This document shows positions 1,845 through 6,648 of a DNA stretch of 64,000 bases, piece after piece. Numbering within the stretch: the stretch's first letter is position 1; each line of letters opens with the position of its first letter. Source of the DNA: Campylobacteraceae bacterium (GTDB taxonomy: Bacteria; Campylobacterota; Campylobacteria; Campylobacterales; Arcobacteraceae); NCBI GenBank assembly GCA_013373175.1, contig JABXII010000008.1:62001-126000 (forward strand), in the 5' to 3' direction. A program made the position numbers and the translations under genes. Under the pieces are notes generated by a model that saw nothing but the letters and a program-made list of their open reading frames with translations, had not been told where the DNA came from and ran no database searches.

Positions 1845-4169
1845 TTAAAAACTTTCCCAATCATCGTTATCATTATTTGCTTTGATAACTCCTTCTTTTG
1901 TTTTATGTTGTGACTTTTCTTTAATCTCTTCTTTTATTGAGGTATTATCTTTTTCTTTTTTTTCACTTTTTTTTGCGACAACAGAGTCCTTTCCTTTAAA
2001 CTCTTTATTATTTGCATCACTTACAATATATTTAGCTATTTGGTCTGTTAAACTTGCAATATCTTGGGTTTCAGATGCAATCATTGCATTCTCTTGTGTT
2101 TGTTGATCCAATTGATTTACTGCAACATTAATTTGTTCTATTCCTGAAAGTTGTTCTTTTGAAGCACTTTCAACATCAGAGATTAGGTTTGTTGATTCTT
2201 GGATATCTTCATTTAATACTTTATATCCTTTTATCATTTCACCTGCAATATCTTTTCCATCATTTGCTTTATTTGTGGCATTTTCTACTAATGATTTTAT
2301 CTCACTTGCAGCTTCTGCACTTCTTGAAGCTAAGTTTCTTACTTCTCCTGCAACGACTGCAAAACCTTTTCCTGCTTCACCAGCAGTTGCTGCTTCTACT
2401 GCTGCATTAAGAGACAGAATATTTGTTTGGAAGGCTATTTGGTCTATTACCGTTATTGCTTCACTTATTGCAGTAACTTGCATATTGATATCTTCCATAG
2501 CTACTGTTGTATCATTTGCTAGTTTTTCACCTTTGTTTGCTGATTCAGTTACACCTGCTGAAAGTCGAGACATTTTTGCTATATTTTCGGTATTACTTCT
2601 AATATTACTTGTTATCTCTTCTAAGGCTGCTGCTGTTTCTTCAAGTGAACTTGCTGCTTCATTAGAGCTTTCATTTAATTTATCTACATTATTCAATAAG
2701 CTATTTGAACTCTTTTCTAGTGTTAAACCATTTGATTTATTTTCCACTAACATTTCAGTTATTGAATCACCTAAGCTATTTACTCCTGAAGCTAATTTTA
2801 AAAGATGTTCTTTTAACCCTTTTGTGGATATTTTGTTTAAATAATTATATGAAGAATACTCTTCTACAATATCTAGCACATTATTAATATTATTTTCTAA
2901 AGTATCTGCCATTTTATTTAATACATCTTTTAATTGCATTAATGCAGGGTTTGATACATTTATATCCAATCTTTGTATTAAATCACCTTGTTCAAACTCT
3001 CCTAATACTGTAATAGTTTCATCAATTAATTTTCTATCTTCTTCTATACCTTTTTTTGTCTTTTCTATATTCATATTTATTATTTTTGTCATATTCCCAA
3101 ATTCATCATTTGAATCAATATTTATTAATTCTACTTCTGGTATCTCTCTATTTAAGTATTTAAAGAAGTTTATTAATCCTGTTTGGAAAGTATCTATTAA
3201 ATTAGATATATTTCTAGGTAAGGCTACTGCTAAGAAGATTGCTAGAGCCAAGATTACAATAGATATTGTAATAATTAGAGACTTTATATTTGAGTTTAAT
3301 TGCTTAACTGCTGGTCCAATTAAATCTTGTTCTTCTTTAATTGATAGTTTTACTTCTTCACTTAAATCTGCAATAATAGGTCCAATTACATCAAGTTTTT
3401 TTTCAACTAACTCTCTTCTTTTAAGCGTATCATCATATATCAAAGTAACTGCTTTTGTATATTTTTCTATTAAATCAATTGCTTCATTAAGTTGAGTTGT
3501 TCTTCTACTATTTTGAACAGTCTTTTTTATTGTAGTTATATTTTTAGATAAAATGCCAAATTCATCTTCAACTTTATTGTAGTTATCTTTAGATTCAGTT
3601 TGCAAAAACTTCATTGTATAAAGTCGTGCTAATAGTAGATTTTTAATTGCTGTACCAGTAAGATATGAAGCTTCATGGTTTTTCTCATCTTTTGTAGCTT
3701 TAAAAACAGAAGACAAGATATTTTCAATTTTTTTACCATTTACATTTAATATAGTATTTAATATTTTATCTTTGTCTTTTGTATATTTTACTATTTCATA
3801 AAAGCTATTTTTGTACTCAACCAAATCATTATCAATTTTTAATATATTTGGAGCTCTAGTTGGATTTTGAATCTCTTTTTTGGCTATATCAAGAAATTTC
3901 TTTGTTTTTTTGTAAGAATCTTCAAAGCTATCTATACTTTTTTGTGTAGGTGCGCTTAAATATTTAATAACACTAATTCTTGCCTCTAACATATTTGCCT
4001 GAATACGTGAAGCTAGAACAGTATCTTTTGCCATTTCTCTGTATGAATTAAATCCATCACCTGCTTTATTAGTTGAATAAATACTATAACCTGCTAAACA
4101 GATGATTAGACCAACAATTAAAATAAATGAATAGATTAGTTTCATTTTTATTGTCATATTTTTAAACAT
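1845..4169 (-). CDS. Methyl-accepting chemotaxis protein with HBM-like sensor domain and C-terminal DWESF pentapeptide
   Basis: Two TM segments, long helical periplasmic region, signalling hairpin '[48 protein letters not shown]'. Confidence 0.93.
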
Positions 4170-4189: not shown

Positions 4190-4879
4190 TTAGTTATCAA
4201 TACTGTTTAAGTGAATACAAAATTTTATTCCATAGACACTTTTACCTTTAAATTCAAATTTATTATCTATGATTTTTATTTCTCCTTTATAATATTCTTC
4301 AATAATTTTTTTTGATATAAGTAGCGTAATATCTAGGGGGATTTCTTCAATTGTGAGATTTGTACTTTTGATTGTAATGATAGTTTTGTCGTTGTTTGTC
4401 TTAGTAGTAATTACTATAAATTTAGTTTTTGCTTTATTTTTTATGACATTTATTATTGAGGTGAAAATATATAAAAATATTTGTGACAGTTCACCCTCAT
4501 AACCAACAAAATAATTACTGCTTAAATAATCAGTCTCAACGGATATATTATGTTTTTCATAAACATAATTGTGTGAAGATACTATATTTTGCAAAGTATT
4601 ATTAATATTAAATAGTTTAATTTCTTTTCTATCAGATAAAAAATTATCAAAAGAGGAAATAGTATTTAGCATTGATTTGATATCTTCATTTATTAAAACT
4701 AAAGTTTCATTGTACACATTTTCTGTTACTGAACCATATTCACTATTAACTAAAACCCCTGATGACATAGTATATATTTTATTTAATTGAGTTTTCCATT
4801 TATTTATTGCATGTGTCATTTCATCGGCTAATTGTAAAATTCTATAATCTTTTTTCGTAAATAAATCTTTTTTATTCAT
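4190..4879 (-). CDS. Degenerate (pseudo) sensor histidine kinase
   Basis: HQWRQPL-class DHp aligns as '[18 protein letters not shown]' (His to Asn); HATPase-like tail '[18 protein letters not shown]' without N-box, DxGxG or GTGLGL. Confidence 0.65.
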
Positions 4880-4946
4880 ACATATCTTTTTAAATATTAT
4901 TTTATAATTGATAATGATTATAGCTTACAACTAGGCTTAATATCTA

Positions 4947-4960
4947 TATCCTATAGGATA
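4947..4960. promoter_or_regulatory. Palindromic operator copy 1 (TATCCTATAGGATA)
   Basis: Perfect 14-bp palindrome upstream of the pseudo-kinase/MCP operon. Confidence 0.6.
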
Positions 4961-5095: not shown

Positions 5096-5113
5096 TTTAT
5101 CCTATAGGATAAA
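5096..5113. promoter_or_regulatory. Palindromic operator copy 2 (TTTATCCTATAGGATAAA)
   Basis: Perfect 18-bp palindrome in the same intergenic region. Confidence 0.65.
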
Positions 5114-5196
5114 CATAAAAAAAAGCTCTAAGTATATAATAGTAATATTGGTTTAGATATATCTGTAATCTAATTCTCTGCAGTTTAACAAAGTTT

Positions 5197-5214: not shown

Positions 5215-5463
5215 ATGAATATTTTTACTAATTCAACCCAATCTGAGGTTGATATATTTCATCGAAAAATATCACGAAATATTAAGAGGAGAAGATTAGA
5301 GAGAAATTTAAAACAGATAGATGTTGCCTTGGAGATAGGCATTAATTCAGTAGCTTTTTATTCAAATTGTGAAAACTGCAAATACGGAAAACATTTTAAT
5401 TTAGGACATATTTATAAAATAGCAAAATTTTTTAATATTGAACCATATGAATTATTAAAATAA
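5215..5463 (+). CDS. XRE/Cro-CI family helix-turn-helix regulator
   Basis: 82 aa HTH_3 'RRRLERNLKQIDVALEIGINSVAFYSNCENCKYGKHFNLGHIYKIAKFFNI'. Confidence 0.85.
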   Translation: MNIFTNSTQSEVDIFHRKISRNIKRRRLERNLKQIDVALEIGINSVAFYSNCENCKYGKHFNLGHIYKIAKFFNIEPYELLK

Positions 5464-5511: not shown

Positions 5512-6024
5512 TCATTGTCCCATTGCAGATTTAGTTGCAAAAATTACAATTCCTATTGCAAATAATAAAACAATTAAAAAAGAAATAATTTTATAAAAGG
5601 TTAGGTTGATTTTTACATTTTCATTATTTTCAACTTCAATATCATTAAATTTCATACATAAATATAGTAAAATAAGACCTATTAAAGTACTTATGAATTC
5701 TATAGAAAATAGTGTTGTTGACATAGCTTCTGGACTAGTTGGAAAAATTTCAAATAAATCAAGAATATATACAAAAATATAAAGAAGTGCAAAAACAGCA
5801 CTTAAGACAATAGAGTATTTTTTCTTTTTAGCAATTAAAAATGCAACGGCAAAGCTTAACAGCCCCAATACAGTAAGAAAAACATTAAATAAAGTAAGAG
5901 TTGTTTCACTATAGTGAGAAAAATCTCTTGTTTCTATTGGACCACCTGGAACTAAAATCGTTAGCAAAACAGATAAAGTAACAAGTAAAAATGCAATAAT
6001 ATTATGAATATTTTTTGAAACCAT
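5512..6024 (-). CDS. Uncharacterised multi-TM membrane protein
   Basis: 170 aa ORF with about 5 hydrophobic segments. Confidence 0.6.
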   Translation of the reverse strand: MVSKNIHNIIAFLLVTLSVLLTILVPGGPIETRDFSHYSETTLTLFNVFLTVLGLLSFAVAFLIAKKKKYSIVLSAVFALLYIFVYILDLFEIFPTSPEAMSTTLFSIEFISTLIGLILLYLCMKFNDIEVENNENVKINLTFYKIISFLIVLLFAIGIVIFATKSAMGQ

Positions 6025-6201: not shown

Positions 6202-6648
6202 ATGAAAGTAAAATATTTAGAAAAATTTTATGTATCAGGTATTACAACTAGAACAAATAATGAAACAGAATTAAATGACGAAAATCCTAAGATACCAGCA
6301 TTGTGGCAAAAATATGTAGATGAAAATATAGAAGGTAAAACTTTTAATAAAGCAAAATCTATGGCTATGTATGGAGTTTATAATAAGTATGAAAGTGATG
6401 TAAACTCTGATTATGATTATACTATTGCAGTAGAGGTTACAAAACCTAAAAATGCTATTACAATAGAAAAAGATAGATATTTAGTATTTACAAAAGAGGG
6501 TGAATTTCCAGATGTAGTAATTGAGACTTGGAAAGATGTATGGGATTATTTTGCCTCAGAGACTTGCGAGTATGAAAGAGCATATAACTATGATTTTGAA
6601 AAGTATGCAAAAGAGAATGAGATAGAAATTTATATCTCTATAAAATAA
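6202..6648 (+). CDS. GyrI-like / effector-binding domain protein
   Basis: Stand-alone GyrI-like fold: 'IPALWQKYVDENI', 'YGVYNKYESDVNSDYDYTIAVEV'. Confidence 0.7.
   Translation: MKVKYLEKFYVSGITTRTNNETELNDENPKIPALWQKYVDENIEGKTFNKAKSMAMYGVYNKYESDVNSDYDYTIAVEVTKPKNAITIEKDRYLVFTKEGEFPDVVIETWKDVWDYFASETCEYERAYNYDFEKYAKENEIEIYISIK

Follow-up and report, generated by a model that had tools for sequence, protein, structure and literature searches.

An enzyme-dead histidine kinase homologue, very probably maintained, in a putative regulator-controlled chemoreceptor operon of Arcobacteraceae

Pseudo-histidine kinases are few and are known mostly as single examples. The histidine-kinase region of RetS alone binds the DHp domain of GacS and blocks autophosphorylation (PMC12148439), RocA acts on CovS (PMC7028121), and DivL senses a response regulator (PMC4211667). 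A protein of this kind was predicted in a stretch of 64,000 nucleotides (the window) from a Campylobacteraceae bacterium of the family Arcobacteraceae (assembly GCA_013373175.1, contig JABXII010000008.1, positions 62,001 to 126,000), and was compared with its orthologues, with intact kinases at the same locus and with the described systems. No paper describing such a locus was found in the literature.

The pseudokinase gene was confirmed as an intact open reading frame, with the ATG at 4879 and the stop at 4190, and its coordinates, strand and length agreed exactly with the original prediction. The features of the locus are listed in Table 1; the divergent regulator gene and the perfect TATCCTATAGGATA palindromes, which are candidate operators, are part of it and had not been mentioned before.

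Table 1. Features of the pseudokinase locus (positions in the window)
Feature	Position	Strand	Description	Basis
Pseudo-histidine kinase	4190..4879	-	229 aa, sensorless, DHp and CA-like	ORF, orthologues, alignment, tree, dN/dS, AF2
DHp-like helical hairpin	4616..4879	-	residues 1-88, with helices at 4-47 and 53-85; phospho-His position taken by Asn26	AF2, family alignment
CA-like (Bergerat-type) domain	4193..4615	-	residues 89-229; N, G1, F and G2 boxes and ATP lid all missing	alignment, dN/dS by domain, AF2
Methyl-accepting chemotaxis protein (MCP)	1845..4169	-	774 aa, 20 bp downstream of the pseudokinase	Pfam MCPsignal (3e-38), orthologues
XRE/HTH_3 regulator, divergent	5215..5463	+	82 aa; 98% identical in G010, 88% in G004	ORF, Pfam, orthologues
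Candidate operator 1	4947..4960	.	perfect palindrome TATCCTATAGGATA, toward the pseudokinase-MCP promoter	
Candidate operator 2	5098..5111	.	perfect palindrome TATCCTATAGGATA, toward the HTH promoter	
TATAAT, -10-like box	4917..4922	-	24 bp separate it from operator 1, as in G010; TACAAT in G004	consensus match only
TATAAT, -10-like box	5135..5140	+	23 bp separate it from operator 2; element also present in G010, G004 and G015	consensus match only

Catalytic residues were compared with those of the orthologous intact kinases and of about 55 kinases of the HQWRQPL class. The phospho-accepting H26 (100% in the family) was replaced by Asn in the window protein and in its two close orthologues (G004 and G010) and by Ala in a fourth orthologue (G048), and Q27, Q30 and P31 were all changed (Q27>K and Q30>T in the window), as anticipated from the motif NKWKTQL. 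In the N box, predicted to be devoid of its expected Asn, N137 was Tyr and the Mg-binding N141 (100% in the family) was Ser, or Thr in G048. The DxGxG and GTGLGL boxes were likewise missing, as had been predicted: the G1 Asp, D172 (100% in the family), was changed to Ser or Val (Ser in the window protein), G175 and G176 were lost in the window protein (G176>T), a deletion of about 17 residues had removed the ATP-lid columns (F, Y, F, T, T, K) together with glycines 1 and 2 of the G2 box, and Thr or Ser stood in place of the third. The protein of G048 retains this last glycine and one in the G1 region. Structural invariants, on the other hand, were retained (L32, I35, G41, E47, I63, T73, F77, F80, F90, I112, E130, L186, I192, G199 and G217). 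By alignment and Pfam, the phospho-acceptor His of the DHp domain, the N, G1 and G2 boxes and the ATP lid that define an active HisKA/HATPase_c kinase are all lost. What was found instead (DHp and CA homology, catalytic residues lost and structural ones retained in all orthologues, and purifying selection) is among what defines a pseudo-histidine kinase, and the residue pattern, as judged from the alignment, is a pseudoenzyme signature and not random decay. Since ATP-binding motifs and phospho-site are gone, enzymatic signalling by the protein is not expected; taken together, the sequences make it very probable that it is enzyme-dead and maintained.

In Pfam scans, no HATPase_c or HisKA match to the pseudokinase was obtained at E<=10, NCBIfam gave chance-level matches only, and a PF02518 search of its own genome returned 85 other places, the pseudokinase not among them; it is thus overlooked by standard domain annotation, and its homology to kinases rests on direct comparison, tree and fold. 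By direct comparison within the 16 genomes of the genus, dozens of ordinary kinases matched it with E values of 1e-18 to 1e-9 (paralogues to 8e-17) over both DHp and CA domains, and the proposed relationship to the HQWRQPL class was thereby substantiated (E about 1e-17 to kinases of the genus). A profile including the intact relatives supported homology over the same two domains. Chance resemblance was ruled out by direct comparison, tree, profile and fold matches. A CheA-type kinase was also considered; the P1 Hpt, P3, P4 HATPase and P5 CheW-like domains were absent from the Pfam scan, and the layout of the AF2 model is DHp-CA.

The fold was predicted by AF2 using an alignment of 19 sequences, which were mostly intact kinases and from which the proteins of G004, G010 and G048 were left out. 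The model showed a hairpin of helices as in DHp domains and an alpha/beta sandwich as in CA domains (pLDDT 83, pTM 0.64), as had been foreseen, and histidine kinase folds were its best matches. Among solved structures the best were ThkA CA domains (Z 18.4, 132 residues, 2.2-2.6 A), followed by whole DHp-CA kinases over 183-204 residues (Z 16-17), with RetS and DivL among the matches. The lid was missing from the model, in which strand 165-173 is followed almost at once by helix 184-197. When AF2 was run on the single sequence, confidence was low (pLDDT 36.5) and the order of helices and strands was nearly unchanged; the predicted fold leans on the alignment of intact kinases.

Two close orthologues were present in the 16 genomes of the genus (G004, 73% identity; G010, 69%), and the fourth, G048, was obtained from another genus by a family-wide search (52%). 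The catalytic losses are thus common to four species of two genera, all with intact ORFs. In a third genus, two genomes (G084 and G085, the latter being Epsilonproteobacteria bacterium UBA4036) encode sensorless kinases of 244-256 aa in which every motif is intact (HATPase_c, 5e-14 and 1e-16) at the same locus, between a divergent HTH gene and a downstream MCP gene. These kinases resemble the pseudokinase in length class, in the sensorless DHp-CA layout and in locus, and DHp fold and CA core are common to both; they differ in that their H, N, G1 and G2 boxes and ATP lid are retained, and their operons differ in having one extra degenerate, DHp-less HATPase-like gene. This gene (L095 5471-6019 and L096 5295-5873; 182 and 192 aa, without DHp helix 1) lies directly 5' of the intact sensorless kinase, and is another pseudokinase in a kinase operon.

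In a maximum-likelihood tree of 60 kinase domains, the four pseudokinases and the kinases of G084 and G085 formed one clade (support 100/99), within which the pseudokinases formed a subclade (100/100) on a long stem of 1.21 changes per site. An intact sensorless kinase thus became the pseudokinase before the genus of the window and that of G048 diverged, or before the gene moved between these genera; since the locus recombines, such a transfer is possible. A search of a contig database with the three close orthologues as query gave no matches; after the intact sisters were added, 23 kinases were obtained, of which that of UBA4036 alone was in the same locus. In an order-wide search of 398 genomes drawn evenly, matches at E<=1e-25 were confined to genomes of the family Arcobacteraceae. 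Two further arrangements were observed. In G061 (L147 2274-3384), an HTH gene is divergent from an intact sensorless kinase of 242 aa, with no adjoining MCP gene. In G006 (L090 2834-5154), a related HTH gene and a full-length membrane kinase gene diverge, and a soluble MCP comes after the kinase; this dCache-like kinase locus was rejected as a member of the same lineage, as the kinase fell outside the pseudokinase clade, and the arrangement is merely similar.

The pseudokinase is dispensable over evolution. In G015 its frame is broken, as is that of the HTH gene; in G047 (L145 3101-3412) an open frame of 103 aa, DHp only and with Asn at the His site, is left between HTH and MCP genes; and in G045 the gene is absent.

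The pseudokinase is most likely a DHp-CA binding protein, engaged in kinase heterodimers or in response-regulator docking, in a regulator-controlled chemoreceptor operon. Because of the precedents of RetS, RocA and DivL, a kinase or a response regulator would be its likeliest partner, and by analogy with them we give about an even chance to its acting by binding one or the other. No response regulator or other kinase gene adjoins it at the locus. The chances assigned here to the competing readings overlap, since a protein bound to the MCP or to the HTH regulator would also act by binding.

The original prediction had named the downstream MCP as the partner, with the pseudokinase as its scaffold, and as stated this was not supported. 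A protein binding the cytoplasmic part of the MCP, or MCP-CheA-CheW arrays, and altering receptor output would fit the MCP gene being directly downstream in 4/4 species whose pseudokinase ORF is intact and in both that have an intact sensorless kinase; the two genes abut or overlap in G010 and G084, and they are presumably co-transcribed. The C-terminal DDWESF of the MCP resembles a CheR/CheB tether. In G004 the ligand-binding half of the MCP (L039 3146-5131) has been replaced (about 50% identity, 3200-4100), with the cytoplasmic part 90-96% identical to that of G010, a modular swap by recombination during which the pseudokinase stayed. The portion conserved despite this swap is the one that such an adaptor would bind. 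However, an intact orthologue of the MCP accompanies the frame-broken pseudokinase of G015 and the DHp-only remnant of G047 (MCP 81% identical) and persists in G045 (MCP 63% identical), where the pseudokinase is absent, and the intact soluble kinase of G061 has no MCP beside it. Because orthologous MCPs persist without the pseudokinase, and because G004 exchanged the MCP sensor half with the pseudokinase kept, contact with the MCP is not needed; the MCP is a possible partner, and a scaffolding role is a doubtful alternative that nevertheless deserves consideration.

Somewhat less probable, and in our judgement unlikely, is a slowly eroding relic, in which the kinase is being lost from the locus, the remnant folds but does little or nothing, and the ORFs still intact have so far escaped loss. 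The three losses described above would accord with such erosion, and so would the level of constraint. NG86 dN/dS of the pseudokinase, calculated with four sequences, was 0.25-0.34 among the window genome (G000), G004 and G010 and 0.38-0.43 against G048; it is thus relaxed relative to its neighbours (HTH, 0.04-0.07; close MCP orthologues, 0.15-0.2; a nearby racemase-like gene, 0.13). Nevertheless, under neutral simulation with AT-rich composition the mean was about 0.84 and the minimum in 1000 draws was 0.389 (G000-G010), so that the observed values lay under all or nearly all simulations. The simulation also led to an expectation of 6-11 stops, vs 0 seen, and neither stops nor internal gaps occurred across four species that differ by 13-33% in nucleotides. 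The CA-like domain is constrained (omega 0.22-0.25 between close species, upper bounds 0.39-0.44), more so than the DHp half (0.32-0.74 between close species, with wide intervals), and the loss of every catalytic motif is common to two genera. The sequences therefore argue for purifying selection after the loss of catalysis, not for fresh decay. The dN/dS comparison called for in the original prediction accordingly revealed constraint (0.25-0.43, vs about 0.84 under neutrality), and its claim of an enzyme-dead protein kept rather than decaying was upheld by this and by the same losses in four species. A recent pseudogene with intact orthologues, the case that would have overturned that claim, was ruled out: the closest orthologues share the losses, there are no stops, dN/dS is below neutral, and only the deeper sisters in G084 and G085 are intact. 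As a separate observation, positions 4258-4558 of the window (in the CA-like part) were 74-76% identical between the window and G010, vs mostly 82-96% in the flanks and 83-88% between G004 and G010; local recombination or faster evolution in the window lineage may account for this.

Within the genome (2.76 Mb), the two palindromes of Table 1 were the only sites matching TATCCTATAGGATA with one mismatch or fewer. The pair was also found in G004 and G010, and in G048 and G015 with one mismatch in one copy, so that the candidate operators are conserved in all four pseudokinase loci. They would lie near -42 of the divergent promoters. Activators of the lambda CI kind sit at such a position. Related Arcobacteraceae XRE genes, often without a conserved neighbour, have two TATCCTATAGGATA-like candidate operators 54-57 bp apart directly upstream at most loci checked (L095 6233/6289, L096 6323/6379, L102 1749/1805 and others). 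The palindromes were accordingly rejected as specific to the pseudokinase and are a general mark of the HTH family. Since paired sites occur upstream of HTH genes even with no kinase near, the candidate operators belong to HTH autoregulation; the family is probably one of autoregulated regulators, and in the pseudokinase lineage one candidate HTH operator appears to stand now at the pseudokinase promoter. Small size and a pair of palindromic operators preceding its own gene are traits that the regulator shares with restriction-modification controller (C) proteins; this assignment was rejected, as the neighbours are kinase, MCP and other genes, with no restriction-modification signature and no linkage to an endonuclease or methyltransferase. 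Frames of the HTH gene broken in an A-rich stretch were noted in G048 (L094 about 6325-6350), where a small change in A-tract length could be a sequencing error, and in G015 (L041 about 5835-5870), where the deletion is longer.

That the pseudokinase is instead a cofactor of the HTH regulator, binding the XRE protein and modulating its activity in a local feedback switch, is quite improbable. The divergent layout with a related HTH gene recurs in nine genomes (G000, G004, G010, G048, G047, G084, G085, G006 and G061), and in G015 pseudokinase and HTH are broken together; yet the pseudokinase is intact beside the broken, possibly misread, HTH frame of G048, the HTH gene is intact without a complete kinase in G047 and G045, and the autoregulated HTH also occurs in many family members that have no kinase.

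Sequence comparison shows that the ancestor was a sensorless, catalytically intact DHp-CA kinase in a locus with a divergent HTH gene and a downstream MCP gene, that it lost the phospho-acceptor His, the N, G1 and G2 boxes and the ATP lid, and that it has since been kept as a protein, which is predicted to fold. On the preferred reading, a DHp-CA binding protein with a kinase or response regulator as partner, its DHp hairpin may pair with a kinase of the HQWRQPL class or a response regulator, or compete for the partners of either, presumably in a stoichiometric manner, and the pathway of that kinase or regulator would be tuned each time the HTH protein, acting at the two palindromes, switched the pseudokinase-MCP operon on. 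Expression of the pseudokinase would thus be tied to that of the chemoreceptor, and direct contact with the MCP would not be required. The weaker constraint on the DHp half than on the CA half does not favour a purely DHp-centred function. A more specific form, which we regard as improbable, is a dedicated inhibitor or docking protein without nucleotide-binding machinery in two genera, whose synthesis would be coupled to that of one chemoreceptor through a local regulator with operators near -42 of both promoters, possibly as a positive-feedback switch; if true, it would be a way to link the choice of chemotaxis receptor with two-component signalling. Should other kinases be its targets, the pseudokinase would add one more tier to the two-component network of Arcobacteraceae, a large one to judge by the HATPase_c places in its own genome. 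Since ancestral enzyme type, inactive form and subsequent losses are all laid out at a single syntenic locus, the conversion of an enzyme into a binding protein is directly testable.

Dead kinases of this kind are already known, and the window protein is an unusually stripped-down one. RetS of Pseudomonas, which works with GacS, is a large membrane protein. It resembles the window protein in its DHp-CA region, and was among the fold matches; it differs in its size and membrane location, and the window protein has no known GacS-like partner. DivL of Caulobacter likewise has a DHp-CA fold with the phospho-His replaced, and works via binding and not catalysis (PMC4211667). In contrast to the window protein, it has PAS domains and retains the N, G1, F and G2 boxes; neither the boxes nor the ATP lid remain in the window protein, its 229 aa leave no room for PAS domains, and its residue at the His position is Asn (Ala in G048), where the DivL family is characterized by PAS domains, Tyr or Ala at the His and the other boxes kept. 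RocA of Streptococcus pyogenes is similar as a pseudokinase with a CA domain without catalytic residues that acts on a true kinase (PMC7028121), but is membrane-bound, still has His246, although dispensable, and has no MCP or HTH partner. In the laboratory-evolved CA-frameshift form of ChrS of Corynebacterium glutamicum, CA function was also lost, whereby a kinase came to act on a paralogous pathway as a positive partner (PMC9491836); that protein, however, is a truncated heme-sensing kinase with the rest of the protein kept, and its CA domain was broken by the frameshift, not refined as a folded domain.
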